A DNA stretch of 64,000 nt. It comes from Alkalicoccobacillus plakortidis. GTDB taxonomy: Bacteria; Bacillota; Bacilli; Bacillales; Bacillaceae_D. The notes under the pieces are model-generated. The model searched no databases and was not told where the DNA came from. It saw nothing but the letters and a program-made list of their open reading frames with translations. Position 1 is the stretch's first letter, and every line of letters begins with the position of its first letter. Shown here piece after piece: positions 568-63,513 of this stretch. The DNA lies in NCBI RefSeq assembly GCF_023703085.1, contig NZ_JAMQJY010000002.1:124001-188000 (forward strand), written 5' to 3'. The position numbers were made by a program, and so were the translations under genes.

Positions 568-1850
568 TTATTCTACAAATTCAAATTCATAATTTAAGAT
601 ACGGACAAGATCACCGTTCTCGGCACCTCGTTCACGTAAGGCTGCATCCACACCCATTTTACGTAACTGACGGGCAAACCGACGAACAGACTCATCCCGT
701 TGAAAATCAGTCATTTTAAAGACACGCTCAAGCTCCACACCAACAACATCGTACACACCATCATCTGCACGAGTGATGATAAATGGCTCTTTTCGTTTTT
801 CATGCTTGTACAGTACTCGAGTATCCTCATCCGTTTCCTCATAAAGTGGAAACTCTGGAGCATTTTCTAACTCATCAGCAATTTGTTGCAACAAGATCTT
901 TAATCCATTTTTCGTTAATGCGGAAACTGGAAAAATCGCTGTCTCTTCATTTAGCTGTTCTTTAAATTGGGTAAGGTTCTCTTCAGCATCTGGCATGTCC
1001 ATTTTGTTAGCTACAATCATTTTTGGACGCTCAGTTAAACGAAGATTATATTGTTTAAGCTCATCTTGAATACTTAGGTAATCCTGATATGGATCACGGC
1101 CTTCAATTGATGCCATGTCAATCACATGTACGATGACTCTTGTCCGTTCAATATGGCGCAAGAATTGGTGACCAAGACCTGTGCCTTCATGTGCTCCTTC
1201 AATTAAACCTGGAAGGTCTGCCATCACAAAGCTACGATGGTCAGCCGTTTCGACCACTCCTAAGTTAGGAGAGAGCGTTGTAAAATGATAATCACCAATT
1301 TTGGGTTTTGCTGCAGAGACTACAGACAAAAGCGTTGACTTTCCTACACTTGGGAAACCAACTAAACCAACATCAGCTAATAACTTAAGCTCTAAGACAA
1401 CTTCACGTTCTTGTCCGGGTTCTCCGTTTTCAGCTGTATCAGGTGCAGGATTGGCAGGTGTGGCAAATCGTGAGTTGCCGCGTCCTCCTCTGCCGCCTTT
1501 TGCGATGACAGCCTTTTGACCAGCATCTGTTAAATCGGCGATAATTTGACCAGTTAGTTCATCCACTACAGTTGTACCTGGTGGGACTTTAACAATCATA
1601 TCATCGGCATTTGCACCGTGTTGGTTTTTTGGACGTCCATTCTCCCCTTTTGGTGCTTTAAAGTGACGGTTATAACGGAAATCCATTAAAGTACGCAGAC
1701 CTTCTTCTACAATAAAAACAACACTTGCTCCGCGTCCACCATCTCCACCAACTTGGCCCGCCATCTGGTACATATTTCTCTTCGGTAGGAGACCTGACCG
1801 TTTCCGCCATCTCCTCCTTTAGCATAAATCTTTACCTTATCTACAAACAT
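568..1850 (-). CDS. obg: GTPase Obg (frameshifted in this sequence)
   Basis: Essential ribosome-associated GTPase, involved in 50S assembly and stress and sporulation signalling. The main frame (568-1773) has the glycine-rich Obg fold, then the G domain with P-loop [18 protein letters not shown] switch II, NKMD and a SAL motif, and the C-terminal OCT domain. The normal N-terminus ([18 protein letters not shown]) is encoded just upstream from ATG 1850 in another frame. Two indels separate them: an A-run near 1773 that appears short by two, and CCAACTTGG at 1748-1756. The family motif GGPAGGDGG predicts CCAGCTGG at the latter. Corrected length is about 427 residues, as usual. The gene is essential, so sequence error is likelier than a true mutation. 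It lies downstream of spo0B, the conserved sporulation operon. Confidence 0.95.
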
Positions 1851-1907
1851 CTACTTTCACCTCTAGTACGTATTCAACAGCTTGATTAAAACTAATCTGC
1901 CATGTCC

Positions 1908-2450
1908 TCACGCTTCTTTTATTAATATAGTAAATACACACTCATACCGATCCTGATGTAGCAATGAACCTTTCAAACCAGAATCCGTTGTTCGGTTGAT
2001 TATACCTTGCCAATCGGCTTCTTTTAGCTCTGTTTTTCCTACAAACCTAAACGTTAGTGAACAGATTTCCTCCACAAAGTTGAAAGTAATCATTACACTG
2101 TTCTCAGAAGTAAAAGAAGACGATCGATCTAGATGATCCATAATCGCACGTACAAGCAAATAAAGAGGCTCTGCCCAATCTTTTAGGGATTTCACTTCGC
2201 CTATTACTTCATAATTCATGTCTACTTTTTGACTAGTCCAGTTATAACCAATCAAGAATAAACTTAGTTCAGGTGCATGTATATTACACAATTTGCTTTC
2301 AGAGATTGATTTTTGAGTAATCTGCTCAATTATTTCTTCGATACGTTTATAATGACCAAGAGCTAAATTCCCTTTTATCAGTTGTATGGTATTTAACCAA
2401 TCATGTCGTGTATGTTTAATTGTTGATAAAAGCTCATCATGTTGGCTCAT
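1908..2450 (-). CDS. spo0B: Sporulation initiation phosphotransferase Spo0B
   Basis: Phosphorelay protein that passes phosphate from Spo0F to Spo0A at the start of sporulation. The helical-hairpin N-terminus contains RHDWLNTIQLIKGNLALG; the histidine of the HDWLN motif is the known phosphorylation site. The C-terminal part is a degenerate histidine-kinase-like ATPase fold. The ATG at 2450 is preferred over an upstream GTG (2471) because GAGGAG lies at the right distance before it; the product is 180 residues, close to the usual 190. The gene is followed by obg on the same strand, a classic Bacillus arrangement, although the usual upstream rplU-rpmA genes are absent. Confidence 0.93.
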   Translation of the reverse strand: MSQHDELLSTIKHTRHDWLNTIQLIKGNLALGHYKRIEEIIEQITQKSISESKLCNIHAPELSLFLIGYNWTSQKVDMNYEVIGEVKSLKDWAEPLYLLVRAIMDHLDRSSSFTSENSVMITFNFVEEICSLTFRFVGKTELKEADWQGIINRTTDSGLKGSLLHQDRYECVFTILIKEA

Positions 2451-2667
2451 TCTAACTCTCCTCGTTTTCACTTAACGTGAACAGAGTGTATAAAGTGTAC
2501 AAATCATTTTATCACAGAATAACTTAATCAAACAGGAAACTTAATAATAATCATGCGGAGTTTTAGCTCCATTCCTATCCTTACCAACATTTAACTATTC
2601 TAACATAATAAAAAATGTTTATGTCAAGAGTTATTGCGATATTGTCGAATTTTTTTCACAATAAACC

Positions 2668-2696
2668 TTTACAAATTTCCAATCATTAGCTATAAT
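2668..2696 (+). promoter_or_regulatory. SigA-type promoter for the small-peptide cluster
   Basis: TTTACA at 2668-2673 and a perfect TATAAT at 2691-2696 are separated by 17 bp. The likely transcription start near 2703 lies about 35 bases before the first small ORF. This is one of the best consensus promoters in the window, and it drives a region with no long gene. Confidence 0.75.
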
Positions 2697-2738
2697 TTGA
2701 AACGTACAAAACAAATTCAAGAAGGGAGCTGAGCAAAA

Positions 2739-2819
2739 ATGATGACATTAACATTTGATCTAATGACTACATCTAACCAACTAAATAACAAAATTGCTCA
2801 TGCCCAAATTCTTCGTTGA
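2739..2819 (+). CDS. Putative 26-residue peptide or leader ORF
   Basis: The ORF starts at ATG after AAGGGAGCT and ends at TGA after 26 codons (MMTLTFDLMTTSNQ at its start). It begins about 35 bases after a near-consensus promoter and is followed at once by paired segments and two terminators. That layout suits a leader peptide or an independently expressed small peptide. I do not recognise the sequence. It is too short to judge from composition. Confidence 0.45.
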   Translation: MMTLTFDLMTTSNQLNNKIAHAQILR

Positions 2820-2868
2820 ATGTCGACTACTAAAATTGCGCTTCCCCAAAAAGGGAATTCGATATAGT

Positions 2869-2897
2869 CGCAGGGATGATGCTCCCTGCGGCTTTTT
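2869..2897 (+). terminator. Terminator 1 in the small-peptide cluster
   Basis: CGCAGGGA and TCCCTGCG form an 8-bp GC-rich stem around TGATGC, followed by GCTTTTTAT. Just upstream, CGACTA (about 2824) can pair with TAGTCG (about 2865-2870), so the region before the terminator is also structured. Confidence 0.75.
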
Positions 2898-2903
2898 ATA
2901 TCT

Positions 2904-2935: not shown

Positions 2936-2982
2936 GTGCACTTTTTTAGTAGAAATAATTTGAATAGGAGGAATAAAATGTG

Positions 2983-3286: not shown

Positions 3287-4673
3287 CTATTTATGAAGTA
3301 TGGCTTTGGCCGCTGCATTTCCTTGATCTATGCAGTCTGGCAACCCTACTCCTTCAAGACCAGCTCCAAGCAATATAAAGACCTGGCATTTGTGTAGAAA
3401 TATCTTCTCTCATTTTCTCAAGCTTAAAGGTATGTCCAACTTGATACTGTGGATTTGACCACCGGCTTACATAATAAAATTCTGGTTTCTCCCGGATCTC
3501 AACAACATTTGATAAATCGTTTAACACAGTTTGTACAATTTCTTCATCTGATTGCTGAACAATTTCGCTGTGTCCAGGTCGTCCTACATAACAACGAAGG
3601 ATGACTTTACCATTTGGTGTTGTATGATGCCATTTTTTACTCGTCCACGTACATGCCGTAATGGTATATCCACTCTTTCTAGAAATGACAAAACCCGTAC
3701 CCTCTTCAGTCTGATGAACAGCGTCTTCTGGAAAAGCCATCGCAACTGTTGCAACCGAGGTCATCTCCATCTGTTTAAAATAATCAAAATAAGTATACTG
3801 CGCTAACATTTTGGCAGTTACCGGTGGAGGAGTTGTCACGATTACCTCATCAAATAGTTCAGACTCGACGTTATCAAAATCGATTAAGAATCCCGATTCA
3901 GTCTTTGTGATATTTTTCACAATTTTATTCAACTGAATGCTTTGTGGATGTAAGTTGTCAGCCACGGCTTCTACTAATGATTCTAACCCGTTTTTTAATG
4001 TTTGGAACATGCCTACTTTTTTCACAGGCTTACCTTGGGGTTTTGGTCGACTCTGTTTTATCCCTTTTATTAAACTGCGATTTTTTTCTTCCATCTGTTG
4101 AAAATGTGGAAACGTCGCTTTTAAACTAAGCTTATCCATATCTCCACCATAGATGCCTGATAGAAGAGGTTCAATTAGATGATCAACAATTTCATTGCCC
4201 AAACGTCTTCTAAAAAAATGACCAAGAGAGATGTCTTCATTTGGACCAATCGTTGCCGGAATAAAAAAGTCACCTAATGCACGGATTTTGCCTAACGGAC
4301 TAAATAAGGCTGTCGTAACAAATGGTGTTAGTTCAGTAGGAACTCCCATTACTGCACCAGCCGGAATCGGATATAATTTTTTTCCTTTTAGAATATATGA
4401 TTGGCCCGTATCATTTGTTGTGAGATCTTCTTCAAGCCCAACCTCGCGAATTAAATCGGTCATACTTTCTTTTCGTTTTAGATAGGAGTCAGGACCCGCT
4501 TCGATCACGAATCCATCTTTTTTGAATGTACGAATTTTACCACCCAATCGATTTGAGGCCTCAATGACTTGATACTCAATGTTTGCCTCACCACGTTGGT
4601 TCGCTTTCTCTAGCTGATAGGCGGCGGCGAGTCCCGTAATCCCGCCACCTATAATCGCAACCTTTTTCTTCAC
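3287..4673 (-). CDS. hemY: Coproporphyrinogen III/protoporphyrinogen oxidase HemY (frameshifted at the end)
   Basis: FAD-dependent oxidase of heme synthesis; in Firmicutes it oxidises coproporphyrinogen III to coproporphyrin III. The N-terminus has the dinucleotide-binding motif [14 protein letters not shown], followed by the acidic end of the second strand ([12 protein letters not shown]). The start is GTG at 4673, overlapping the hemH stop as GTGA. The raw frame ends early at 3354. Removing one base in CCAAGC at 3366-3371 restores the expected FAD-contacting tail ([17 protein letters not shown]) and a stop at 3287, giving about 461 residues. A CCAGC six bases away (3360-3364) is intact. It is the third gene of hemE-hemH-hemY. 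Confidence 0.95.
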
Positions 4674-5613
4674 ACCGAGTCCCTTCCTTCAATCAGCTTT
4701 TTCCGAACAACGTTTGCCAGACTTGCAAGAAACTCTGGGTTTGTATTTGGCATCTTTGGTCGGAAATAATCAACACCAAGCTCGTCCGTCACAATCTTAC
4801 ACTCGTAATCATTATCAAAAAGAACTTCCAGATGATCAGCAACAAAACCAACCGGGCAATAGACAAATGCCTTATATCCTTTTTCATGATAAAGAGTTCG
4901 GGTCAAATCCTGAACATCTGGACCAATCCAAGGATCTGGTGTATTCCCTTCACTCTGCCAACCTATCTCGTAATGAGTTAGTCCAGCCTTATCAGCGAGT
5001 ATATCGGCTGTTTCTTTTAACTGATCCGGATATGGATCCCCAGCAGCAATAATTTTTTCCGGTAGACTGTGAGCTGAGAAAATGACACACGTCTCTTCTC
5101 GGTTTGGTACCTGTTTCATTATCTCTTTAATTTGTGTTGTCCAATACTCTAAAAATCCCGGTTCCTTGTACCAAGCTCTCCACACTATGGATCGTTAATC
5201 CACCCAAACGCTCTGCCTCTGCCTGAGCACGTCCATTGTAAGATTTCACACTAAAGGTTGAGAAATGCGGTGCAAGAACAAGACTAACCGCTTCCTCCAC
5301 ACCATCTTTCACCATTTCTGCAACGGCATCCTCAATAAACGGGCTAATGTGCTTAAGGCCAAGATAGGCTTTTACCTCATAGTTTTCCAAGCGTTTCATT
5401 TAAAATATCTTCAATTCCTTGAGCTTGTTGCTCGGTTATGATGGCCAATGGGCTTAAACCACCTATCGCCTCATATCGATCCATTAAATCTTGAAGTGCT
5501 TCTTCACTCGGCTTTCTACCACGTCGAATATGAGTATAATAGGGCTCCACTTCTTCTTTTGAACGTGGCGTTCCATATGCCATAACAAGTAATCCCAGTT
5601 TCTTTTTAGCCAT
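4670..5613 (-). CDS. hemH: Coproporphyrin ferrochelatase HemH (two frameshifts)
   Basis: Inserts iron into coproporphyrin III in the Firmicute heme pathway. The three frames 5377-5613, 5127-5399 and 4670-5185 together give about 314 residues, the usual length. They contain the N-terminal VMAYGTP motif, the catalytic histidine region [10 protein letters not shown] and the [13 protein letters not shown] motif with its conserved glutamate. Both breaks lie at CCAAGC, at 5387-5392 and 5171-5176. Deleting one A in each restores the family sequence across the join (for example [14 protein letters not shown]). The gene starts 24 bases after hemE and overlaps hemY, so the three are surely co-transcribed. 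Confidence 0.95.
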
Positions 5614-5637: not shown

Positions 5638-6694
5638 TTATGATGTATGTGTTTGCTTAAATGCCGATGAATATTCATGAACAAATGCCGTTAATCTACG
5701 TAATACCGCGGGATCAACTTCAGGGAATACCCCATGACCGAGATTGAAAACGAAATGATTTGACTTCATTCCCTCATCTAAAATTTCTTTTGCTTTCTTT
5801 TCGATAACCGGCCAAGGAGCAAGTAGAAGCGCTTGGGTCTAGGTTACCCTGAACCGTTTTTGTTACTCCTAGTGCTCTTGCTTCGTCGACACTTAGTCTC
5901 CAGTCAAGCCCCACTACATCCAGAGGTAAACTATTCCATTCCGTTGCTAAATGACTAGCTCCCACACCATGCATGATAAGTGGAACACCTTCAGGTCGAA
6001 GTGTAGCAAAAATCCGTTCCATAACTGGCTTAATGAAGGTTACATAATCCTTGCGACACAACGCGCCAACCCATGAATCAAATAGTTGAATCGCTTGAGC
6101 TCCAGCTTTAATTTGAGCTTTTACATAAGCAATGGTAACGTCACCAAGCTTGTCCATTAGCAAAAACCATGCCTCAGGATTTGAGTACATAAACGCTTTT
6201 GTGTTGTGATAATTTTTAGAAGGACCACCTTCAATCATATAACTAGCTAGAGTAAAAGGTGCACCCCCAAAGCTAATCAAAGGTACTTCAAGCTGTGTTC
6301 TAAGTAATTTAATTGTATCTAATACATAATCAACATCTTTTTCCGGCTCAATCATTCCCAGTCGCTCAACGTCTGCCTTTGATTGGATCGGATTATGTAT
6401 CACAGGACCAATACCTGACTTTATCTCAACGTCCACACCAATCGCTGGCAATGGAGTCATAATATCTTTATATAAAATAGCTGCATCATTGTTATACTGA
6501 TCAACCGGGAGTTTGGTCACATATGCACATAACTCTGGCTGATGTGTAATTTCAAATAAAGAGTATTTCTCCTTGATTTTTCGATATTCCGGCTGAGATC
6601 TGCCTGCCTGCCTCATATACCAAACTGGTACATGGTCATGCGCTTCCCCTCTACACGCCTTTAAAAATGTATCATTCCATTGCTTTTCTCCCAT
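5638..6694 (-). CDS. hemE: Uroporphyrinogen decarboxylase HemE (frameshifted)
   Basis: Decarboxylates uroporphyrinogen III to coproporphyrinogen III. Family signatures are the substrate-binding [15 protein letters not shown] near residue 25, [16 protein letters not shown], and GLDWR near residue 280. The frame breaks at GCTTGG, 5831-5836 (CCAAGC on the coding strand). With one base removed it reads [20 protein letters not shown] and runs to the stop at 5638, for about 352 residues, as in B. subtilis. The ATG at 6694 follows AAGGGTGG. It is the first gene of the heme operon; a 20-bp repeat array lies about 200 bp upstream. Confidence 0.95.
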
Positions 6695-7453: not shown

Positions 7454-9605
7454 AAAATGAAAATCCTATGTTAAAATCTGCTTCGGCTATGTTGGAGGTT
7501 TCTCCTTCGATGCCGGCGTTTGAATCATATGGAACCACTTCATAGGTTTTGGAGGAGAAGGGATTTAGCCTTGAATGTGCGTAGCTACCGCCTTCTATTC
7601 CAGAGGCTACTAATTCTTTTTCGCCTTTATGCACCTCATAAATGTTATACCGAACGCGTTCGTCTTCTGATGGTGTCCATTCTAAATCGACTGTTAGTAA
7701 TCCTTTGCCACCTACTCGCATGGATGCTTTTAGATCTTCTACTGCTAGGAGTGGAATTGGTGGTGAGAGGTCCTCAACATCGTCTGGTTTTTCAAAGGCT
7801 ACGTTCCGCAACTCATCCGGCAAGTCATTTACAATGTTCTTGAATAATACCGTTGGATAGGCGCTACCTTCATTTAAATAATGATCTTTATTCGTAGTAT
7901 CATAACCCATCCAGACAGCCCCTACCACTGTTGGTGTGTACCCAACAAACCAAGCATCCGTAGTGGCTCCTTCAACACCCTGATAGGCAGTAGTACCGGT
8001 TTTTCCGGCAATTGGTGTTTGCGCAGTTCCTGCCGTTCCTGTTCCGTCCGTAATAACGGATTCAAGCATTCTAGTGATATTCCAGGCATTCTGCTTAGAT
8101 AAGACTTCTGTTTGAACAGGGCTTGCTTCTCCAATTTTTTCGCCACTGTGATCATAGAGTTCTTTAATAAAATAAGGCTCAATAATTCGACCTTCTTCAT
8201 TAAATGCACGATACGCCTTTGTTAGTTGGTAAGGTGTTACGCCTTCGTTTAGTCCTCCTAAAGCAAGCGATAAACCGTGGTCTGATATTTTGAATCCAAA
8301 TTCTCCGACCATTTTTAACGATCGATTAATGCCTATTTCATTCAACAACCAGACAGCTTGGTGCATTGGCAGATTGTACTAGTGCATCGTACATCGTCAT
8401 TTCACCCGTGTACTGCTTGTTGTAATTTTGTGGTCTATATGTTCCATATGCCAATCTTTCATCACGCAGCATTGAGTACGGGCTATATGCACCTGATTCA
8501 AGAGCTGGTGCATAGACAGAAATTGGTTTAAAGGTAGATCCTGGCGAACGTTTGACATTAACCCGGTTTAACCCTAAGCGAACGTAATCTCTGCCTCCTT
8601 GCACGGCAAGGACGCCTCCTGATTCACTATCCATCATCATGACACTCGCTTGTGCATCCTCATTACCTTCAGGGAAGTAAACATCATCTTGCAATTTATC
8701 GTAGGTTGATTGTTGCAAAGACTTGTCCATAGGCACAACAATTCGGTACCCACCTGTCATTAGTTCCTCTTGAGAAAGGTGATAACGATTTTCTGCTTCT
8801 TCCATCACCATATCTATGTACGTATATAGTGCTTCATCCTTAACTGGATTTTGCAGGTCTAGTGCGATAGTTTTGCCTTTAGAGCGTACACTTTCTTCCG
8901 CCGTGATAAATCCTTGATTCTCCATTAACGTGAGGATTAGATCTCGACGTTCCTTACTTCGATCTGGATCATTAATCGGTGAGTAGCTATTTGGTGCTTT
9001 TGGTAATCCTGCTAGAAGGGCGCCCTCATCAACAGTAAGCTCACTTACATCTTTATTAAAATAAAGATTAGAAGCAGTTTGCAGACCGTACGCTCCATGA
9101 CCAAAATAAATTTGGTTTAAGTACATTTCTAAAATTTCATCCTTGCTATAACGTCGTTCTAAATTTATAGAAATAAAGACTTCTTTTATTTTTCGAAGCC
9201 ATGATTTTTCATTTGTAAGGAACACATTTTTGGTGAGCTGTTGGGTAATCGTACTTCCCCCTCAGACTTGCCACCTGCTATAATATTTCGATACATCGCT
9301 CTACCAATGGACCTGAAATCAATGCCTGAATGCTCATAAAAGCGATTGTCTTCTACAGCAACAAAGGCTTCCTGTACATGTTCTGGAATGGTATCAATCG
9401 AGACAGGCTGTCGATTTTCAACATATACTCTTGTGATTAACTCTCCAGATTCATCAACCAATGAACTTGAGTTGTTCATAATAAGTTTTTCATTATCAAT
9501 AACATAATTACCTGCTAAAATAACAATGGCATAAACAAGTAGACCGGTTACGAGGGCAATACCCGCCAATATGAAATAGGTAAGTATTTTTTTCAACACT
9601 GTCAT
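7452..9605 (-). CDS. pbpF: Bifunctional penicillin-binding protein, PbpF type (two frameshifts)
   Basis: Class A PBP that polymerises glycan strands and cross-links peptides at the outer face of the membrane. It has a single N-terminal membrane anchor (residues 8-32), a glycosyltransferase domain (EDNRFYEHSGIDF, then a GGSTITQQLTKN motif, then RYSKDEILEMYLNQIYFG), and a transpeptidase domain with SPGSTFKP as the SxxK motif, SAN, and GKTGTT as the KTG motif. A fibronectin-like tail follows. Three frames join to about 717 residues, the PbpF length. One break is a G-run near 9258, one base short. The other is GCTTGG at 8356-8361, the recurrent CCAGC lesion. Its position beside hemE matches B. 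subtilis pbpF. Confidence 0.93.
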
Positions 9606-9662
9606 TCCCCCCCTTTTGTTGCAACTAGTTTACCCAAGCTTTCCCTTATTTTACATATGCTT

Positions 9663-10295
9663 CTACTCAACAAGTCCATGCCGATGTGCGTATATGGCTA
9701 GTTGAGTTCGATCATCCAAGTCTAACTTGTGTAGAATATTACTGACATGTGTTTTTACTGTCTTGATCCCGATGTATAAATGCTCAGCAATTTCCGAATT
9801 GGTTTTCCCATCTCCTATTAATAAAAGCACATCAAGCTCCCTTGCAGTCAGTTCTTCATGTAATAGTTTCACTTGGTTTGTTCTCATCTTGTTCATCATC
9901 TTTGTTGCGACCTTTGATTCTACAACCGGTTCTCCTTTGGCTGCAGAACGAATCGCCTTTGCAATATCAGAGGCAGACGTTGTTTTTAATAAATAGCTAA
10001 AAGCACCCGCTTCTATCACCGGGTACACCATGTCATCGTCTATAAAACTAGTTAAAACAATAATTTTACTATCTGGTTTTTGCTCCATAATCTTTTTTGT
10101 TGCCTCTATGCCATTCATGTTTTCCATTAGGAGATCCATTAAAATGACATCAACCTCATGCTCTAAAGCGAGCTTTGTCCCACTCTCTCCATCATTTGCT
10201 TCACCAATCACCTGAATGTCTGCCTGCGTGGACAGATAAGCACTAACACCCATTCTAACCATTTCGTGGTCATCAATTAATAGTACTTTAATCAT
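9663..10295 (-). CDS. liaR: Response regulator LiaR
   Basis: NarL/FixJ-type regulator of 210 residues. The receiver domain carries the acidic pair near DDHE, the phosphoacceptor in VDVILMDLLMENMNG (about residue 54), a threonine in VLTSF and a lysine in LLKTT. The C-terminal LuxR-type helix-turn-helix reads LTARELDVLLLIGDGKTNSEIAEHLYIGIKTVKTHVSNIL. It overlaps liaS by eight bases and is the last gene of the lia operon. LiaR activates the lia promoter in response to cell-wall antibiotics that disturb the lipid II cycle. Confidence 0.93.
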   Translation of the reverse strand: MIKVLLIDDHEMVRMGVSAYLSTQADIQVIGEANDGESGTKLALEHEVDVILMDLLMENMNGIEATKKIMEQKPDSKIIVLTSFIDDDMVYPVIEAGAFSYLLKTTSASDIAKAIRSAAKGEPVVESKVATKMMNKMRTNQVKLLHEELTARELDVLLLIGDGKTNSEIAEHLYIGIKTVKTHVSNILHKLDLDDRTQLAIYAHRHGLVE

Positions 10296-12089: not shown

Positions 12090-12116
12090 GATCTTCCCTC
12101 CTTTCCGCTGTCAAAT

Positions 12117-12920: not shown

Positions 12921-12980
12921 GCACACACCGCCCTTGTCTATTAGTCACTATAAATGGTTTTCTTCGTTTTCACAAGATAG

Positions 12981-14267: not shown

Positions 14268-14983
14268 TGGAGGTTTCAATATGGTTGGCGTTTTTCGCTT
14301 GGAATGGTTTCGTTTCTGTCTCCATGTATCTTTCCATTAGTGCCTGCCTACTTAGCCCAATTAACAGGCTCCACTATAGCCGATGGACAAGTGCAAGCTG
14401 AGAGGCATTTGATTTTAACAAGAAGTTTGGGGTTTATTTTAGGGTTCACAATTATATTTGTCCTAATGGGTGCATCATCTTCGTTTTTAGGACAGATCTT
14501 CGCAAATAACCGTCAATTAATTGAACAGCTTGGTGGAATTTTTATTGTTTTATTTGGGTTACAGATGGTTGGAGTAATCTTCTCAGATCATTGCTTACAG
14601 AAAAAAAGTTACCAATAAAACCACGAAAATCAGCCAGCTTTTCTAATTCTTTGTTGATTGGATTTTTGTTTGGAGCAGGTTGGATGCCTTGTATTGGTTT
14701 AGTTCTAGGATCAATTCTTATTATTGCGAGTAACGGGGAGACGATGAGTTTTGGTATTCTTTTACTCTTTGTATACTCAGCGGGTCTTGGAGTGCCGTTT
14801 TTAATTGTAGCATTTTTCTGGTCAAAATCTTTATCAAAGCTCAGAGTGATAAACAGATGGTTACCAACGATTCAACGTGTGAGCGGGATATTAATGATCA
14901 TTCTAGGAATTTTACTCTTTACGGGTTATTTCCGTGTTCTCTCGGCATACTTTGCACGTTTTGTTCCGTTTTTTAATTTTTGA
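14268..14983 (+). CDS. ccdA: Cytochrome c biogenesis protein CcdA (two frameshifts)
   Basis: Polytopic thiol-disulfide transporter that carries reductant across the membrane for cytochrome c maturation and spore coat synthesis. ATG 14268 follows AGGAGTG and gives MEVSIWLAFFAG; the frame then leaves at GCTTGG (14297-14302). Removing one T continues as MVSFLSPCIFPLVPAYLAQLTGS, with the first conserved Pro-Cys motif. A second break near 14590, not at CCAGC, leads into LLTEKKLPIKP and then GAGWMPCIGLVLGSIL with the second conserved cysteine. Total about 238 residues, the usual size. It is transcribed away from the lia operon. Confidence 0.92.
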
Positions 14984-29327: not shown

Positions 29328-30279
29328 TTGATTGTAAAGAAACGTTATGCACCAATCCAACTGTTAGGATTGGAAGCTCTTATCCGCCGAAGTAGTTCTG
29401 TAACCGATGTGATGAATACAGACCTACACAAATGGCAGATCGGGTACAGAGGAGAGTGCTCCATTCATTATTATCTCAATCAACTCGATGGTTTTATGAT
29501 TTTGCACGATTTGAGGCTACCAGCTGAGCCAAGCGGATTTTTTCAAATCGACTCGCTGTTATTAAGTAAGTATGGAATCATCATTCTTGAAGTTAAAAAT
29601 TTTCATGGCGTCATTCAATTTAATGAGCAATCTCATCAGGTGCTACGCATTCTTAACGATAAGGAAGAACGTATCCCCAATCCACTTATTCAAGCTTCAC
29701 GCCAACAAGCACAACTAGACTCATTTCTCATTCGAAATGGGCTGCCGTCACTCCCAGTAAGTGCTTACGTCGTGTATAGCTCCCCGCTTACCATTTTTCG
29801 TACCTCACATGCAAAAGTTATACACGCAGAAGCAATCCCTGTTCAACTGGAAAGTTATAAGCAAAAGGCAAAACGCGAATATCTAACGCGAACACAAATG
29901 GAGCACATTAGTTCATTGTTGATGGGCGCAAATAAGACTTTTGTGCCGGATTTATTGAAGAAGTATGGCCTTAGTTCAAAAAATATACAGAACGGAGTAC
30001 ACTGTACGCACTGCAACAAACTTACAATGATTCGGCCAAGTCGCATTCGGAAGTGGACATGTCAAAACTGCTATTTTTCTTCTCAAAATGCTCACATACC
30101 AACCCTCCAAGATTATGCCGTGCTTTTCCAAGCCTAGGATCAAAAATCATCAAGCACGTGAATTCCTCAAACTTCCCACTACAACAATGGCTAAATATCT
30201 TTTGAAAAATTTAAACTTAACTACTACCGGAAATAACAAAGGTCGTATCTATCACATTCCACTACCTTTTGAGATTTAG
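29328..30279 (+). CDS. NERD nuclease-related protein with zinc ribbon (frameshifted)
   Basis: After a TTG start preceded by AAAAGGGGG, the N-terminal NERD domain has QIGYRGECSIHYYLNQL and IDSLLLSKYGIIILEVKNFHG, where D, E and K form the PD-(D/E)xK-like site. A zinc ribbon with CTHC and CQNC follows (about residues 225-250). The frame then stops at 30137, but reading CCAAGC (30128-30133) as CCAGC continues as QPRIKNHQAREFLKLPTTTM to 30279. That adds a basic C-terminal segment for about 316 residues. NERD proteins are poorly studied and are assumed to act on nucleic acid. Confidence 0.82.
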
Positions 30280-32638: not shown

Positions 32639-33785
32639 TTATAATCCATTGATGAGTAGGACAAACAATCCTTGAAATAATCCTACTATGCCACCAATTA
32701 ATGCACCTAAATAGGTAATGAGCTTAAGCTCTTTTGAAGCAACAGACATGACTAGGTCTTCTAAATGTTTAGTTGAAAAGGATTGAACCTGGTCGCTAAT
32801 AATTTTTTCGATTTGAAAGGCTTTAAGGAAAGCCCCAACTTGAGTGGCTGCTACTTCAATAAGTACATTCACCCCACTTGGAATCCATGAGCTGAGAATT
32901 CGTTCCTCATAATCAGGAACCCAACTATTTAAAGGCGCATCCAACGACCTTAACACAGGTGTCTTGTCTTTGACCAGCTGACTTAAAAAATGGCTGACTT
33001 TTCCTTGATTAATAAAATGATTTACTTCATGAAGAGGCATCTCCTTAGCTTTTGCCCATTCCTTAACAAGCAATTCACTTAACAATTGGTTTGTCCGCTC
33101 ATTTTGTAAAAAACGTAAAATTTCTGGCTGAACCTTATCTACTAAGCGTTCATTCCCCATAAACATTTGGATCATACTTCCTAAGCGCCCCTTATGATCA
33201 AGGAACTCCTCAATCATGCCACTTAGCTTCTCTTTTCCTTCACTGCTCTCAAAGTAATCAGTTGTCTTGTTTAACACTGCTTGAGAAAGCTGAGGTATAT
33301 AGGATTCAATTCTTATCACCAGTGCATTCGGCAAAATATTTTCTATTTTTTTATCTTGATTATTCATTAAAAACCGATTGATTCCAAGCGTTAATCATTT
33401 TATCCGTACGTTCATACGTGGATTCTTTCATGTTAGGAACACCAATAGTCTTCTCTACATACTCGACTAAAGTCTGTTCACTATGAATGATTTTACTTGC
33501 TTCTTCCTCCAACCAGTCAGTCACACCTGTTTTAAATGAAGAATGTTTGATTTGTTTTTGAAGTCCTTCTGCTGTTAAAAGGTAGGTCCCTACCATTTGA
33601 CCAAGCTGAACAGAAATTTCTTTATGACGTTTTGGAATAAGCCCTGGTGTAAAAGGTACCTTCCAATCACCAAGATAATAGGCTCGATGTGGTTTAAATA
33701 ACATACGAATCGCTAATGCGTTTGTTAGGCCACCAAGTGCAGCCCCAACAACCACCATAAAACTAATAAACATCCATGGATCCAC
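32639..33785 (-). CDS. yheB: DUF445 membrane protein YheB (frameshifted)
   Basis: The two frames (33360-33785 and 32639-33367) join to about 382 residues. It has a hydrophobic N-terminus (MFISFMVVVGAALGGLTNALAIRMLFKP) and a C-terminal helix (YLGALIGGIVGLFQGLFVLLI), the DUF445 pattern. The start is GTG 33785 after AAGGAGTG. The break is CCAAGC at 33383-33388. Removing one base gives NAGINRFLMNNQDKKIENIL across the join. The function is unknown. Confidence 0.88.
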
Positions 33786-38516: not shown

Positions 38517-39720
38517 TAGATTACTGTTTCAATCCTATCATCAGTGTGTGTAAACACTTCAGCAAGTAAGTTCATTCCTCTTTTTATTTCCTCATCCGTA
38601 GCATGTGTAAAATTAAGACGCATTGTATTGGTTTTTGGGACCCCGGCATAAAACGGAGCTCCTGGCACATAGGCTACGCCTTTTTTGACAGCTTCTGTCA
38701 ACATGGCTGTTGTATTCACTCGTTCATCTAGCTCAATCCAGAGAAACATTCCACCCTTTGGTTCAACAAAATGAACATTTGGTAAGTTTGATTCTCTTAG
38801 ACATTCCATCATTATATCTCTTCTGTGGCGATATAGATCCGTTACTCCTTTAATATGTCCATCAAAGTCAAAGTGCGTACAGAGCTGATAGATCGCTTGC
38901 TGTGAAAGTGAATTTGAATGAAGATCATTTGCTTGCTTAGCCTGTGCCATCATTCGGATCACTTGAAACGGTCCAACAATCCAACCCGTTCGCAATGCTG
39001 GAACAGCTGTTTTAGAAAAGGTGCTCGTATACATGACACGTGACCCATCATCTAAAGCAGCCATTGGTGTATACGTTTCATCAGGATTAAATTGAATATC
39101 ACCATAAGGATCATCTTCAAGGATTAAACAGTTATACTTATGAGCTAATCTCACTAACATCTTACGGCGTTCTAAAGACCATACCTTTCCAAGCTTGGGT
39201 TAGAAAAGGTTGGCACAACATAGATACATTTAGGACGAAGGGTACGAAGCTTAGCCTCTAAGTCCTCCTGAATCATTCCTTCGTTATCTGATTCCACTGC
39301 AACAATGTCAGCTTCATATGATTGAAACACCTGAAGTGCGGCAAGATATGTTGGATCTTCTGTTAAAACAATATCTCCTGGGCTAAACATGACCCTTGAA
39401 AATAAATCAATTGCTTGCTGTGAGCCGGTCGTTAATAAAACATCATCAGCAGTAAATCCAGTAATTTCCTTACGACTCATTCGCTCCACTACAAGCTCCC
39501 TTAATGGTCTGTAGCCTTCAGTCTCAATATACTGTAAAGCCTTTGTTCCAGAAGCAAAAGCTCTAGAAAATGCCTGTTCAATGGCTTCTACTGGAAATAA
39601 ATCATCTGCGGGAAGTCCTCCTGCAAATGAAATGACATCACCGTTCCCCACAACCTTTAAAATGTCTCGTACAGCGGAAGACTGTAAGTGCCGTACTCGT
39701 TTTGAAAATGCATATCTCAT
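38516..39720 (-). CDS. PLP-dependent aminotransferase, 2-aminoadipate transaminase-like (frameshifted)
   Basis: The two frames give about 400 residues of fold-type I. Motifs are VISFAGGLPADDLFP at the N-terminus, TGSQQAIDL, the PLP aspartate region EDDPYG, the Schiff-base lysine in YTSTFSKTAVPALRTGW and the arginine in NTMRLNFTH. The frames separate at CCAAGCTTGG (39189-39198). The true sequence is probably the palindrome CCAGCTGG, hit on both strands; it restores SNPAGKVWSLERRKML. The family includes LysN-like and MocR-related transaminases; the substrate is uncertain. Confidence 0.9.
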
Positions 39721-40664: not shown

Positions 40665-41502
40665 TTATAGGGAATGAGTCATTTCCTCACGCACTTTTTT
40701 CAAATATGCCTCTGCTCGATCAACTTCTCCAAGCCTTGAGAGCTAATGTAAAACGTTCGTACGAATCAGGTAATGATGACTTCTCTTTAAATTCAAATTG
40801 GGAGTCAATGTCACGCTGTTCCCTAAGTAGCGTATGGAGCCTATTTATTCGATCCTCAAGTTCAATCCTGTCATTTTGTAGGTGCTCAAGATCTTTTTTA
40901 GCCGACATCGAATCAAGTTGTTCAATTTGTGAAGATATTTCTTCGAGCTCGCGTTTTAAGTACTTGGTTTTTTGAACTAAATTTGTTAAAGGGTACTCCA
41001 TTTTATTTGCTAAGGAGTGTAGCTGCTTTTCTATATTCGCAATGTTAGCCGTTTCTTCTTTTTCAAGTGATGCTATATGCGTATCCTCTTGATCAAAGTC
41101 TTCAAGCTCCTGTTTCAATTTATGAAGCTTTTCAAATTCTTCTTCTAACTGAGACTTTGCACGCGGTAACACCGCTATTACTGACCCGTAAGAGGCTCTT
41201 GTTACACGTAAGCCATCAAGGTTTTGTTGGGCTTCTTTTGCATTGTGTAGGATACTAAAAAAACCCTCGCTTAATTCTTCATAGCGTTCTTTTGTTTTCC
41301 CACGAGAAAGTTTTAACTTGTCTGAGGAATCATGATATGGCTGCAATACTTCTGCAAGCAGCTTGTCATGTTTTTTTGAAACTTCTTCTACTTCTTGCTC
41401 TAAATAACGGTTTCGTTTATTTTGTAGCGAATGTCTAATGAATAAAATAATGACTGCAAACACCACTAATGTCACTACAATCTGAATGAACATGACTAAC
41501 AT
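40665..41502 (-). CDS. Membrane-anchored coiled-coil protein (frameshifted near the end)
   Basis: One N-terminal helix (MFIQIVVTLVVFAVIILFI) and then almost 240 residues of coiled coil, for example VEEVSKKHDKLLAEVL and EKEETANIANIEKQLHSL. The overall look recalls EzrA-like proteins but it is much shorter (278 residues corrected). The frame breaks at CCAAGC, 40729-40734. Correcting it extends the protein by ALKAGEVDRAEAYLKKVREE to a stop at 40665. Function unknown; the family is not recognised. Confidence 0.78.
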
Positions 41503-41656: not shown

Positions 41657-43472
41657 CTATTTCTCTAATGCTGCATATTGTGATTTGACTAACTCGTAAT
41701 ACTTGCCTTCAGAATTAATTAATTCCTGATGGTTCCCTTGTTCAATCACATTCCCGTGCTCTAAAACAATGATTTGATCTGAATCACGAATAGTCGATAA
41801 GCGATGAGCAATCATAATCGCTGTCCGGTTATGAAGAAGTCGTTTTAAGCCATTTTGAATAATTAACTCTGTTTCGGTATCAATGCTGGCTGTTGCTTCA
41901 TCAAGGATGAGAATTCGTGGATCAGCTAACAATGCTCGAGCAAATGATAATAGCTGTCTCTCCCCTACAGAGAGAACACTACCCTGCTCTTCTACTTCTG
42001 TCTGATAGCCTTTTTCCAATTTCGAAATAAATGTATCGGCACCAATTGCTTTTGCGGCCTCAATCACTTGCTCGTCTGTTGCACGAACATTACCGAAACG
42101 AATATTCTCCATAATGGTTCCTGCAAAAATAAAGGTATCTTGCAGCACATAACTAACATTTGTACGTAACTCATTTAGTTTCAGATCTCTTAAATCATGA
42201 CCATCAAGTAATACGCGGCCTTTGGTTGGATCATAAAAACGACTCATAAGATTAACAATGGTTGATTTACCTGAGCCAGTATGTCCAACTAAGGCAATCG
42301 TTTTTCCTGCCTCAAAAGTTAAATTAATCTCATTTAATGCTTTTCTTGATGAATCGTATGCAAACTCAACATTTTCGAATACTAATTCACCTTTAACATC
42401 TTTCAACGATTTTGCATCTGGCTTTTCAGGAACAGATGGTTTCTCATCAAGAAATTCAAAAATACGCTCAGATGATGCCATACCAACAAGTAGCTGGTTA
42501 TACACTTGACCAAGTCTAGAGATTGGCTCCCAGAACATTCCTAAGTAGAAGGCAAAAGAAACAAATACACCAATTGTAATATTTGGATCGTTTCCTTGAA
42601 TGAGATGAGCACCATACCAGATCAAGATCGCGCCACCAAGAGCACTTGCCATTTCTACAAATGGTCTAAACATCGCGTTCATTCGTGATGCCTGCTTCCA
42701 AGCTCTCATAGTTATCTGTATTCACAGTATCAAAGAACTCCATGTTTTCTTTTTCTTGAGCATATGCTTGGGTTACACGAATGCCTTGAATACTTTCATT
42801 TAAATGCGAGTTTAGCCTAGATTGTCTAATCCGAACGACCTGCCACGCACGACGAATTTTGCGTCGTAGCTTAGTAGAAATGAAAAACATAATTGGTAGG
42901 ACAATCAGTATGGCCAAAGCAAGCTGTGGACTCAATGTAAATAAAATAATGACAATCCCAACTAGCATCACTAAATCCATTAATAAATTTACAACACCAT
43001 TTGTAAACAGATCCTGAAGGGAATTAATATCATTAATGACACGAACTAAAATGGATCCTGCTGATCGTTTATCAAAAAAGCGGTGAGACAGCCTCTGAAT
43101 ATGCTTAAATAAATCAGAGCGAATATCATAGATAATATGCTGTCCCAGCTCGTTCATCCATCGAATACGATAATAGTTTGACACGTATGACAAGATATAC
43201 ATCCCAAAAACAATAGCAGCTAACATAAACATAAACGATACATCATTACTTGAGATCCCATAATCCAGTGCGTAGACGCCAATGAAAATTGGAATGGCGA
43301 GTCGCACAAGAGTGGAGATAAGCATCGCAATAATTGTTTTTGGGAGTTGTGATTTAGCATAAGGTTTCATATATCCAAAGAGTCTTGTCATTTGTAACCA
43401 GTTAAACGGTTTTTCAATGATCTGCTCTACTGGATAATGAAATCGCGATTTCTTTGTCGTCTGTTCCATCAT
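41657..43472 (-). CDS. yfiC: ABC exporter subunit, YfiC-like (frameshifted)
   Basis: Half-transporter of about 605 residues, the YfiC size. The membrane domain (first 330 residues) is split between two frames at CCAAGC, 42698-42703. The correction gives NYESWKQASRMNAMFRPFVEM. The ATPase domain has Walker A VGHTGSGKST, signature LSVGERQLLSFARALL and Walker B ILILDEATASIDTETE. It lies nine bases after its partner gene, so a heterodimeric drug or lipid exporter is likely. Confidence 0.9.
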
Positions 43473-47577: not shown

Positions 47578-48564
47578 TTAGTTCTGATAACCGTTTGGAT
47601 GGGCAGAATGCCAGCTCCACGCGTGTTTAACTATATCTTTTAAATTAGTAAATTTCGGTTCCCAAGAAAGCTCGGATTTTGCTTTTTCAGGAGATGCAAT
47701 TAAAACAGCGGGATCGCCTGCACGACGAGGTGCAATCGCTGCTGGATCTCGTGTCCTGTTACTTCTCTACAAACATCAATGACTTGTTTAACAGAGAAAC
47801 CTTGACCAATTCCTAAATTATAAATTGAGCTAATTCCATCATTCTTCAGCTTCTTAACGGCTAAAAAGTGAGCATCTGCTAAGTCCATAACATGGATATA
47901 GTCTCGGATACACGAGCCGTCTTCCGTCTGATAATCATCACCAAATACTTGAACCTGATCTCTTTGTCCTAACGCCGTTTGCAAAACAATTGGAATAAGA
48001 TGAGATTCCGGATCATGATCTTCACCAATACGTCCTTCTGGATCTGCCCCAAGCTGCGTTAAAGTAACGAAGGCATACTGATTTTAAGCCATACGCCTGA
48101 TCTGACCATTTTAACATCTTTTCAATAGCAAGCTTAGTTTCACCATATGGATTTGTCGGATTAGTTGGTAATGTTTCCACAATTGGTACTTGCTTTGGTT
48201 CTCCGTATGTTGCTGCAGTAGAGGAGAACACGATGTTTTTTACATTATGTTCAACCATCTTAGTTAGTAGTGAATGAGTTCCAATCACATTATTGTGATA
48301 GTATTTTAATGGTTCTTTTACACTTTCTCCAACTAGTGAATCCGCTGCAAAATGAATAACCGCATCAATATTTTGTTCAGTAAACACCTTGTCAAGAAAG
48401 ACTCCGTCCAAAAGATCCCCTTCATATAAGGTTGCACCTTGTAGTGCATCACGGTGTCCTTTTGAAAGATTATCCAGCACTACTACATCTTCACCTTTAT
48501 CTAACAAATGAAGTACGGTATGGCTGCCGATGTATCCAGCACCACCAGTAACTAAAATAGCCAT
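47578..48564 (-). CDS. galE: UDP-glucose 4-epimerase GalE (two frameshifts)
   Basis: Interconverts UDP-glucose and UDP-galactose. The N-terminus has the NAD motif [17 protein letters not shown]; the catalytic SSTAATYGE and YGETK motifs are at about 120 and 145. The frame leaves after CLRYFNAA at CCAAGC (48049-48054) and again at 47741-47745. At the second site CCAGC is one C short of the CCCAGC needed for [17 protein letters not shown]. The two errors cancel, giving 328 residues with the end YQN. It follows pgcA by 18 bases and is probably in one operon with it. Confidence 0.94.
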
Positions 48565-55245: not shown

Positions 55246-55722
55246 TTACGCTCGAATCGTTTCTTCTACAACCTGAAATGACAGATGAATGTCAATTTGG
55301 CCTAACGAGCTATCAAGAGACAACGTTAGATACTTTTCAGACGAGTGAAAGATAGAAGAGCCTTCATTTGTAACCGGAGGCGTCACATCAATTATACATT
55401 GTTCATTCGACAACTCTGTCGCCGTAGTACCCGCAATCCAGTTCCCAAATTCCTTCACCGCACTCCAAGCTCATTGCATCTAATTCAGTAACCGTCATAC
55501 CGCCCATCATTGTACTAACAATATTTAAAGCAGTCTCTTTCTTAAAACTACAAATGATTTGACCAGCTAACTGACCTTTTACACCAAGGATTACAGAAAT
55601 GTCATTACTCGTGACGCTTGCATCTCCAGCTTAGGAGTTAGTGAGTGTACCTCTGCCCCTAGATGATTCATTAAAATTCCTTTTGTTGCTCGCACAATTG
55701 CATTAACATATCTAGCTTCCAT
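55246..55722 (-). CDS. cheX: CheX-like chemotaxis phosphatase family protein (two frameshifts)
   Basis: ATG 55722 follows GTAGGGGAA and opens MEARYVNAIVRATKGILMNHLG, the CheX N-terminus. The frame is lost at 55626-55630 (CCAGC, one C short) and restored by reading CCCAGC as VILGVKGQLAGQIICSF. It is lost again at CCAAGC (55465-55470), where the fix gives ELDAMSWSAVKEFGNWIAG. The two cancel, giving 158 residues. The central EFGNWIAG carries the expected E..N pair of CheC/CheX phosphatases that act on CheY-P. No other chemotaxis genes are beside it. Confidence 0.88.
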
Positions 55723-58609: not shown

Positions 58610-60933
58610 TGCTGGCCCTCTACCTTCTAGTCATGTTCTACTAATGATCGCATCAATCATTAAAGAGTTGCTTTCAGACAAGGCAGCATCTGCTCTTGAT
58701 TTTAAGCAAAAACAAGTGTATTACTTCTCAATGGAATTTCTACCCGGCCGTTTTATTGAGACCAATCTTTTAAACCTGGATCTGCTAGATTCCTGTAAAG
58801 AAATTCTTTGCTCCAATCAGTATGATCCAGATCTCATTTTTCAAAGTGAATTAGATGCGGCGCTTGGCAACGGTGGATTAGGTAGACTAGCTGCTTGTTT
58901 TTTAGATTCATTGGCTGCCCTAAACTTCGTTGGTCATGGCATGGGGCTTCGTTATCAATATGGTCTGTTTGAACAAAAAATCTCAGAGCAGAAACAGGTC
59001 GAACTACCTGATCAATGGTTTAATGGTTCCGGTTATGTTTGGGAAAAGGTTCAAGCAGACAAGGCTTTAATTGTTCATTTTGGTGGGGCAATTCAATCAA
59101 GTGTTCAAAATAACCGACTAACTTTCCACGTAAATGATGCTGAAGAAGTAAAAGCAATCCCATATACTATACCGATTTTCGGCTATCAAAATGAACAAGT
59201 TAATCAGCTAACCGTTTGGAAAGCCGAAACGATGCCAGCGAGTCCCCATGTTGAGTTTGAAGCGTATGCCAAAGGAAAAAGAAAAGCTGAAGAAATCACT
59301 GAATTTCTCTATCCCGATGATTCACACTACGATGGAAAAGTTTTGAGATTACGCCAACAATATTTTTTGGTTTCTGCAGGTTTACAATCGATTTTATCAA
59401 GTTTTCTTCATTCTGAAGGTGTCATCGAGAACCTAGCAAAGAAGCTAGCAATCCAAATCAACGACACACATCCAAGCCCTCATTATTCCAGAGTTTATGA
59501 GATTATTGATTGATGAACATGAGCTTTCATGGGATGTTGCATGGGGTATTGTTCGTGCAACCGTCTCCTATACAAACCATACATTGATGGATGAAGCCTT
59601 AGAAAAATGGCCTGTTTTTTTAGTAAAAGAACAGCTTCCTAGAGTGTATTTGCTAATTGAAGAAATTAATCGCAGGCACTGTCTTGAGGTTGAATATGAG
59701 GGATTACACGAATGGGAAAAAATCGAGGATATATCGATTATTACAAACAATGAAATCCATATGGCAAGACTTGCAGTGATAGGTAGCCATTCTGTAAATG
59801 GCGTGGCGAAGCTTCATTCAAGCATTTTAAAGAATCGATTAATGAAATCGTTTTCTAGTCGCTTTCCTTCTCGATTTACAAATAAAACAAATGGGATTAG
59901 TCATAGACAATGGTTATTAAATGCAAATCCACTGCTGGCAACATTTATTACCGAATTGATTGGAGACGAATGGAAAAGCAATCCGCAATCATTAGAAAAA
60001 TTACTAGCTTTTACAGAAGACTCTGCCGTTCTATCTGAACTCGCATCGATTAAGTACACCAACAAACAAAGGCTCTCGCAAAAAATCTATGCCAAAACCG
60101 GTCAACACATTATGGTTGAATCATTATTTGACGTTCACATCAAGCGACTACATGGCTATAAGCGACAACTGTTAAACCTTCTGCATATTTTGTATCTTTG
60201 GGATGTATGTCATGAAAAACCTGAATTAATAAAAGTTCCTCGTACGTTCATTTTTGGGGCAAAAGCAGCGCCAGGTTATCTATATGCCAAGCGTGTCATT
60301 TCATTAATTACGTCTGTTTCAGAACAACTTAATCAGGACCCAATAACAAAAGGAAAGCTTCAGGTACTATTTTTACCTAATTACAATGTGACTCAAGCGG
60401 AATTGATTATTCCTGCAGCAGACCTCAGTGAACAGATTTCTACCGCCTCTAAAGAAGCATCAGGCACAGGTAATATGAAAATGATGATGAATGGCGCCTT
60501 AACAATTGGCACAATGGATGGGGCAAATATTGAAATGACAGATTTAATCTCAACTGAACATTTTTTTGAATTTGGCATTGGTGCGGAGGAAGTGCTTGCG
60601 TATGAACAAAACGGACGATATTCGCCTCGTGAAGTATATAACCAGGACCAACGTCTACAAAAAGTATTGAAAAAACTAGTGGATGGCACAATTAAAGGGG
60701 ATCAGGTTGCTTTTAAAGATATCTATTATTCTCTCTTGTATAACGGCGATGAATATTTCCTATTGAAAGACTTTGGCAGCTATGTACACGCACAAAACCA
60801 GGTACAGAATCAGTATCTCGATTCACATACCTGGCAAAAAAAATGCTTAATTAATATTGCCCATTCAGGCTATTTTTCAAGCGATCGAACCATCTCTGAA
60901 TATGCAACTGATATTTGGGGCTTAGGAACCTAA
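58557..60933 (+). CDS. glgP: Glycogen phosphorylase GlgP (frameshifted)
   Basis: Releases glucose-1-phosphate from glycogen. About 791 residues after correction. Motifs are MEFLPGRFIETNLLNL, LDAALGNGGLGRLAACFLDS, NDTHP, and the PLP site EASGTGNMKMMMNGALTIGTMDGANIEM (PLP lysine at K of GNMK). It starts inside glgA with AAGGAGTG upstream. The frame breaks after INDTHP at CCAAGC (59472-59477); the fix gives [28 protein letters not shown]. Its end overlaps the convergent phosphodiesterase gene by 12 bases. Confidence 0.95.
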
Positions 60934-61650: not shown

Positions 61651-61663
61651 GATTCCTCCTCAG

Positions 61664-62296
61664 TTATTCTGTAAATGAAACGTAAAAGCTTCCCTTTTCT
61701 TCTTCTCCCCAATGTAGCGTAAAGTGATCACCTTCTGCAATTGGACCTACGCCCTCAGGAGTACCTGTAAAAATAATATCTCCCTCAGATAATCCAAATG
61801 CCTGCTCGCATTCATCTAGTACCTGTTGAAAATCAAATAACATCTCCGTGCTGTTTCCAGACTGAATGATTTCTCCATTTTTTTGAAGAGAGAACGTTGT
61901 TTGTTTGATTTCATCCACATTAGTTAATGGCCAAAATGGCGTTAAAATAGCTGAATTACGAAAGCCTTTAGCTCGCTCCCAAGGATGGCCCTTCTTTTTT
62001 AGCTTTGATTGAAGGTCACGTAACGTTAAGTCAATTCCAAGAGCAATTTCAACAACACGATCGTTCACTGATTGAGAGTTCGATTTCTTTCCCACTTTCA
62101 GCACAATTTCAAGCTCGTGATGGATCTCTCCTTGTCCACTTGGGTAGCTAAGAGTTTGTCCGTTTGCAAAGGCCAAAGCACCTGTAGGTTTTGTGAACAG
62201 CAAAGGTGTATCAGGTACCTCATTTCCTAATTCTTTTGCATGCTGAGCGTAATTACGTCCAATACAGAATATATTTTGAATGTCTTGTAAAGTCAT
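61664..62296 (-). CDS. Fumarylacetoacetate hydrolase family protein
   Basis: A 210-residue enzyme of the FAH fold: CIGRNYAQHAKELGNEVP, KPTGALAF, HHELEIVLKVGK, ALGIDLTLRDLQSKLKKKGHPWERAKGFRNSAILTPF and IIFTGTPEGVGPI. Metal ligands are the glutamates in HELE and the aspartate in GID. Such enzymes open carbon-carbon bonds or decarboxylate keto acids; the substrate here is not clear. It lies 47 bases after mtnE. Confidence 0.87.
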   Translation of the reverse strand: MTLQDIQNIFCIGRNYAQHAKELGNEVPDTPLLFTKPTGALAFANGQTLSYPSGQGEIHHELEIVLKVGKKSNSQSVNDRVVEIALGIDLTLRDLQSKLKKKGHPWERAKGFRNSAILTPFWPLTNVDEIKQTTFSLQKNGEIIQSGNSTEMLFDFQQVLDECEQAFGLSEGDIIFTGTPEGVGPIAEGDHFTLHWGEEEKGSFYVSFTE

Positions 62297-62343
62297 GTTC
62301 TCTTCTCCCCTTTATCATATGTATTGACTACATAGTTAGTCCC

Positions 62344-63513
62344 CTAAAATAAGTCCAACTCTGCAATCCTTTGAACTGCTTCTTTAAGTTCATCCTCTTC
62401 ACACAACAAGCCAAGTCGAACAAATCCTTCTCCGTATGTACCAAATCCGTTTCCAGGTGCCACAACCACTCTAGCCTTATACAATAATAAATCCGCAAAT
62501 TCCTCAGAAGTGTAGCCTTCAGGAACAGGAAACCATGCAAAAAAGGAGCCTGATGGAGCTGATACCTTCCATCCTATACGCGCCGCTTCTTTAACTAAAA
62601 CATTTCTTCTTGCCTCATATGTAGCCACCAATTCTGTTACACACGATTGATCAGCTGTCAGCGCATAGGCTGCTGCCTCCTGAATTCCACCAAATAGGCT
62701 GCAGTAATAATGATCCTGAATTAGGTTGATCGCTTCAATGATCTGTGCGTTTCCAACAGCAAAACCAACTCGCAGCAAGCCATATTGTAGGTTTTGGAGA
62801 GGGTCATCATTTCAATCCCTACATCCTTTGCTCCGGGTACCTCCAGGAAACTAAGCGGTCTCTTGCCATCAAACCCAATCGCACCGTATGCATAATCATG
62901 TATGATTGCGATGTTATTTTTCTTCCCAAGTTCTATCGCCTTTTCAAATAGATCATGATCAGCCACAGCACCCGTAGGATTATTAGGATAATTAAGAAAC
63001 ATCATTTTTGCCTGATCTAATACTTCATCTGAAATGATGGAAAAATCCGGTTGGAAATTATTCTTAGATTGAAGAGACATTGTCTCCATTTTTGCACCAA
63101 GCCAACGCAATTCCTGACCAATAATCAGGATAACCAGGGTCAGGAACCAAGGCTGTGTCTCCCGGATTCAACAAACATTGACTCACTTCAACAAGTCCTG
63201 TTTTTGTACCGGATAGAATGGCTACTTCCGTTTCTGGATTAATCTCGACACCACACTCTCGTTTATAATACTCAGCAACGGCTTCTTTTAAAAATCCATA
63301 GCCAGTAAACGGAGAATATTTGTGATAAAGCGGATTAGAAGACGCTTCTTTTAATTTCTCAACGATATGTTCTGGTGTTGGCTGATCAGGGTTTCCCTGC
63401 CCTAAATTAATCACATCATCGTGTGTCTTTTTTACTTCGATAGTTTTACGCACTAGCTCTGCAAAAAACTGCTCTGGTAACCGATTAATAGCCTCACTTT
63501 TTTCGATGTTCAC
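62344..63513 (-). CDS. mtnE: Aminotransferase MtnE (methionine salvage type; two frameshifts)
   Basis: The three frames (63064-63513, 62721-63110, 62344-62778) match B. subtilis MtnE/YkrV closely from memory: NLGQGNPDQPTPEHIVEKLKEA, VPDPGYPDYWSGIALAGAKM, FLNYPNNPTGAVA, TLSKTYNMAGWRVGFAVGNAQ and GFVRLGLL. It transaminates 2-keto-4-methylthiobutyrate to methionine. The first break is CCAAGC at 63097-63102. The second (62771-62780) reads CGCAGCAAGC where CCAGCCAGC is expected, so a deletion and a substitution affect two overlapping pentamers. About 389 residues corrected. No other mtn genes are present in the window. Confidence 0.92.

Follow-up and report, generated by a model that had tools for sequence, protein, structure and literature searches.

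Frame breaks concentrated at CCAGC in an Alkalicoccobacillus plakortidis assembly suggest consensus errors at a modified DNA word

The window considered here, a 64,000-nucleotide stretch of Alkalicoccobacillus plakortidis DNA (G000:C2:124001-188000), belongs to an assembly of 4,366,190 bases in 9 contigs with a completeness score of 96.9, compared with 99 for each of four congeners (G001-G004). One protein encoded in the window is 84-86% identical to its matches in Alkalicoccobacillus murimartini, A. porphyridii and A. gibsonii. Many genes in the window are interrupted by one-base frame breaks. The original prediction held that these breaks cluster at the pentamer CCAGC (GCTGG on the other strand), mostly rewritten as CCAAGC, and that they are consensus errors caused by a modified base. 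The gene names used below, such as obg, hemY and hemH, are the labels of that prediction, and strands are those of the word CCAAGC (+) or GCTTGG (-).

Gained-base breaks at CCAAGC (+) interrupt hemY (3366..3371), hemH at two places (5171..5176 and 5387..5392), the NERD gene (30128..30133), yheB (33384..33389), yfiC (42698..42703), galE (48049..48054), mtnE (63097..63102) and the glycogen phosphorylase-family gene glgP (59472..59477), where the break precedes the family-matching part. The word reads GCTTGG (-) at gained-base breaks in hemE (5831..5836), the PBP1A-like gene pbpF (8356..8361) and ccdA (14297..14302). A coiled-coil gene carries CCAAGC (40729..40734, +) close to its end, and the final residues of the relatives' proteins run on in another frame. 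In cheX, CCAAGC at 55465..55470 (+) and a second break at approximately 55620..55632 (-) form two mutually cancelling shifts. All 14 coordinates originally given as CCAAGC do carry CCAAGC or GCTTGG. The obg gene (1748..1785, -) has gained-base breaks at 1751 and 1782, the word at the first being CCAACTTGG and not CCAAGC. Lost-base breaks occur in galE (47746, -) adjoining an intact CCAGC, in a kinase gene (28265, -) at CACAGC where the congener G004 has CCAGC, in mtnE (62776, -) and in liaI (13864, -) adjoining CAGCTG, where neither of the two relatives used for comparison has CCAGC.

To place breaks systematically, we surveyed 400 kb of contig C2, which includes the window, alongside 400 kb each from G002 and G004. 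The 739 open reading frame (ORF) proteins of these two relatives (370 from G004) were used in a translated search, followed by frame-aware alignment to locate junctions. This yielded 79 frame-changing junctions against 294 G004 proteins and 54 against 186 G002 proteins, which merge into 89 frame events: 69 one-base gains and 20 lost-base events. Both relatives support 45 of the events, and 23 lie inside the window. When G002 and G004 served as a clean-frame check on each other, a single junction appeared in each direction (with 193 and 194 proteins), the relatives' versions of these genes being intact.

The breaks first noticed by eye proved real. Of 20 places (19 coordinates and the start 1748), 17 lie within 12 bases of an automatically found break, and three-frame reading beside the relatives' proteins confirmed the other three (40729, 55465, 55626). 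The automatic search adds six window events to the earlier list (1782, 9262, 14581, 35185, 39192, 53719). Only 39192 is at CCAAGC, where this word overlaps GCTTGG (39189..39198, strand unassigned, one or more gained-base breaks). The other five are away from the word. Three bases are lost among these five: one within a G/C run in the pbpF gene already mentioned (9262, -), one supported by one relative only (14581, +), and a doubtful one at an ORF start, again with a single relative (35185, +). The gained-base break at 53719 (-) likewise has no motif.

Across the 400 kb, 60 of the 69 gained-base events fall within 8 bases of CCAAGC/GCTTGG, compared with 0.58 expected from the random-position rate of 0.0084, and CCAAGC is the top hexamer near such events. 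Lost-base events give a more mixed picture: 13 of 20 are near CAGC/GCTG (random rate 0.089), and a relative carries CCAGC/GCTGG within 12 bases at 5 of the 20. The claimed clustering at CCAGC is therefore strong for gained bases and only partly upheld for lost ones. One or both relatives carry CCAGC no more than 12 bases away at 26 of 61 CCAAGC breaks, as opposed to 21 of 160 unbroken CCAAGC and 132 of 3033 positions picked at random from the alignments. Both orientations are affected, with 41 (+) and 20 (-) error words. Aligned coding sequence contains 61 CCAAGC at breaks and 289 standing CCAGC, which means that about 17% of sites are affected.

Word counts were also made without alignment. 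By depletion score, no pentamer is more depleted than CCAGC (396 occurrences vs 604 and 585 in the relatives), while CCAAGC is raised (280 vs 212 and 207). The CCAAGC excess extends genome-wide, with 3178 occurrences compared with approximately 2210 to 2380 predicted from the densities of the four congeners, whose sizes were rounded. A longer or bipartite word was rejected, as the flanks of the 61 error and 289 standing sites show no required neighbouring base; mild flank preferences (a higher rate with T before and with C or G after, less with A) are uncorrected for many tests. Homopolymer error does not fit the pattern, one lost-base event sitting at a G/C run. A screen of 397 genomes of the order for CCAAGC excess provided no usable outlier test, since density differs among genera. 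ACCAA, CCAAC and other CCAA-containing words are also commoner in the surveyed part of C2 than in the relatives.

A search of the genome for DNA methyltransferases, which the original prediction implied, returned four matches to the C5-cytosine methyltransferase family PF00145 at three loci. Among the four congeners, G001 has one match and G002, G003 and G004 have none. Other modification genes were sought with less success: PF01555 (N6_N4_Mtase) has no match in the genome, with a control search positive in 11 of 14 named genomes; PF02086 has none; PF07669 has only below-threshold matches; and PF02384 has a single weak match, the like of which occurs in each of the five genus genomes. For Dnd phosphorothioation, TIGR03183 (DndC) had no match in the five genomes, with a weak control in which 0 of 14 named genomes pass the cut-off. 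Adenine methyltransferases and Dnd were thus set aside as sources, as these searches found no convincing gene.

A modified base foreign to the base caller leads to nanopore consensus errors on one short word in otherwise in-frame contigs. We propose that the cell carries a modified base inside the asymmetric word CCAGC/GCTGG, that this base would distort the raw signal, and that the base caller or polisher would then output CCAAGC, with one extra A, or more rarely lose a base, at roughly one site in six; the modifying enzyme would be one of the genome's C5-cytosine methyltransferases. It is highly probable that most of the breaks are systematic long-read consensus errors of this kind, probably from nanopore-only data. 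The motif-specific consensus error is strongly supported by the single break each way between relatives, the gathering of most breaks at a single pentamer, whichever its orientation, and the lack of a clear rise in substitutions at CCAGC. The modified base behind it is less direct: the case for it comes from a published example with the same word and from a methyltransferase family lacking in three of four congeners. The artefact very likely has a real biological cause.

The published example concerns 12 Listeria monocytogenes strains, among which, according to the excerpted text, R20-0026 (ST1081) has errors at GCTGG/CCAGC, the same pentamer as here, and four strains have errors at GCAGC (Chiou et al., 2023; PMC10687267). 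These errors were linked to modification, Illumina reads and amplified DNA having shown the cause and whole-genome amplification having restored quality; the excerpts name no enzyme for GCTGG. In ST1081 mismatches dominate and the cause is shown, whereas in the present genome, from a different genus, indels dominate and we infer the cause. The kind of artefact and the word have thus been reported before, and the present genome extends them to a further genus, with indels dominant and with candidate genes. Parts of a Klebsiella study similarly describe strain-linked motifs at nanopore errors (PMC11610573), and a longer N4-methylcytosine word, CCAGCG, is reported in the text available from another (PMC9296519). 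In two further papers, CCAGC (PMC10745947) and GCTGG (PMC11134628) each occur once, within a primer. Among the matches listed in the literature, none was a C5 enzyme acting on CCAGC or on GCTGG.

Several other explanations deserve to be weighed against a consensus error at modified CCAGC. The breaks do stand in the assembled sequence, and motif-specific mutation is conceivable, so that the strain might be losing genes or a mutator might be acting at CCAGC. Real decay is nevertheless very improbable given how many events there are (89 per 400 kb, some in genes usually needed for life if the labels hold), how strongly they gather on one word, how few arise between the relatives, and the cancelling pair at 55465/55626 in one gene; substitutions at CCAGC, moreover, show no clear rise (4 nonsynonymous vs 2.0 expected). 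Since a single fixed hexamer marks most of the breaks, CCAAGC could also be taken for a programmed frameshift or recoding signal that the ribosome reads. We give this next to no credence and reject it, because aligned coding sequence contains 145 CCAAGC without a detected break compared with 61 at breaks, and the hexamer alone does not, therefore, shift the frame.

The platform or polisher might instead err at CCAGC in any DNA, with no modified base needed, and a weakness of the base caller would look alike when judged from the consensus alone. Its chance is small: in the excerpted Listeria data, seven strains sequenced on the same nanopore platform ranged from 0 to 40 mismatches, and amplification improved those with poor results (PMC10687267); this strain spread and rescue imply that CCAGC poses no intrinsic difficulty to that platform. 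The present genome, furthermore, encodes methyltransferases from a family missing in most congeners. Within the reading of a modified CCAGC, and counted as part of its probability, there is a slim chance that the base is N6-methyladenine made by a type III enzyme and not C5-methylcytosine. ModD1, a phase-variable Mod of Neisseria meningitidis, acts through 5'-CCAGC-3' methylation according to partial text (PMC13248682), and its recognition word is identical to the word found here, but the genome has no PF01555 gene and the searches of PF02086, PF02384 and PF07669 fared no better. An adenine-type gene is possibly unassembled or frame-broken, because the assembly is incomplete.

As for the C5-cytosine methyltransferases, two of them (388 and 414 amino acids) form a tandem pair on contig C1 (locus L089, G000:C1:2585001-2605000; genes at 8245-9489 and 9500-10666). 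A nuclease gene with an HNH domain (10974-12107) adjoins them, giving the side-by-side layout of a restriction-modification system. The three genes lie in a low-GC island (L089 2875-12300, GC 0.30-0.34) that contains, in order, a DUF2357/PDDEXK_7 gene, an AAA gene, a 232-amino-acid gene without a match, a broken stretch, the pair and the HNH gene; the broken stretch consists of short broken frames that by eye resemble an insertion sequence (IS) helper gene. In NCBIfam, the 377-amino-acid HNH protein best matches a phosphorothioated-DNA restriction endonuclease, though only in its HNH part and with a score under the cut-off. This protein is shorter than its closest homologues (426-436 amino acids), and its similarity to them already starts ahead of the annotated start, which implies either a wrongly placed start or damage to the gene.

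Homologues of M1, a member of the pair, are found at E values up to 1e-100 in 13 of 397 order genomes, the present one included, and Paraliobacillus zengyii and Paenibacillus oryzisoli encode both M1-like and HNH-like proteins, on contigs whose lengths are equal. The single G001 match to PF00145 is not a close M1 homologue. When three genomes with M1 homologues (G154, G224, G371) were set by eye beside others of their genus, they showed no CCAAGC excess. The island has 0 CCAGC in 9.4 kb as opposed to 4.5 expected, a result reached in 2 of 300 simulations; this is a weak indication, being one test among several and finding no support in homologous loci.

The other two C5 methyltransferases are prophage-like. 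One (353 amino acids; L090 8836-9897) adjoins a phage terminase gene and has a homologue in Listeria grayi (P0227, 59%), without thereby identifying the enzyme of ST1081. The second (224 amino acids; L091 9590-10264) lies near RecT, stops approximately halfway through the domain and carries CCAAGC, so this gene may itself be affected by the error.

Systems for asymmetric words, of which LlaJI is an example, commonly have one methyltransferase per strand, and we favour the pair for this reason. In the text available to us, LlaJI of Lactococcus lactis has two 5-methylcytosine methyltransferases for asymmetric GACGC/GCGTC (PMC1459862). In gene arrangement the island resembles it, with tandem C5 methyltransferases and, at some distance on the same strand, AAA and DUF2357/PDDEXK_7 genes; unlike in the LlaJI system, whose word is GACGC, an HNH gene adjoins the pair and the broken IS-helper-like stretch separates it from the AAA and PDDEXK genes. 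The L. lactis plasmid p275D (NZ_CP016702.1) also encodes a methyltransferase pair, both members of which are homologous to those of the pair here (65.8% and 56.6%); it adjoins a nuclease gene with a PLD domain, whereas the pair here adjoins the HNH gene.

The most likely enzyme is thus the tandem pair beside the HNH gene on C1. Two methyltransferases suit an asymmetric word, though they would also suit other words. Should CCAGC indeed be modified, our judgement, which is not a calculation, gives the pair somewhat less than an even chance of being the enzyme, the two prophage-like genes jointly a slightly smaller one, and an unassembled or unrecognised source a lesser share still. Our proposal that the tandem methyltransferases and the HNH gene constitute a restriction-modification system for CCAGC/GCTGG, with 5-methylcytosine on both strands, is accordingly tentative.

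Several observations weigh against a consensus error at CCAGC modified by a C5-cytosine methyltransferase. None of the methyltransferases is tied to CCAGC by homology, and CCAGC is not avoided in M1-homologue loci of 12 other genomes. Error words favour the contig's plus strand (41, with 20 on the minus strand), while standing CCAGC is nearly balanced (152 to 137). The Listeria errors are mainly mismatches, and the few nonsynonymous mismatches at CCAGC counted here do not reproduce that dominance. The counted indels cover somewhat less than half of the shortfall in CCAGC, the rest of which may reflect composition or avoidance, and the word is not near the break in 9 of the 69 gained-base events and 7 of the 20 lost-base ones. 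The nanopore reads, the modification and its C5-methyltransferase source are also all read back from an assembled consensus.

If the rate of 89 breaks per 400 kb were uniform, perhaps nearly a thousand would occur genome-wide. With many genes spoiled, the record would be misread as rich in pseudogenes, and its completeness score is below that of its congeners. That the same word is affected in Listeria suggests that CCAGC modification foreign to base callers may be more widespread. Frame-break statistics from the assembly by itself picked out one exact word, which offers a cheap screen for public genomes. If the pair and the HNH gene do form such a system, genes would be assigned to a CCAGC modification that spoils nanopore genomes, and motif-specific breaks in public assemblies would reveal methyltransferase specificity directly from the consensus.

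Elsewhere in the window, at 9663-12926, a response regulator gene is followed in a row by genes resembling LiaS (a kinase), LiaF and LiaG, an order like that of the Lia envelope-stress operon; of these matches LiaF passes the cut-off, and those to LiaS and LiaG fall short of it.

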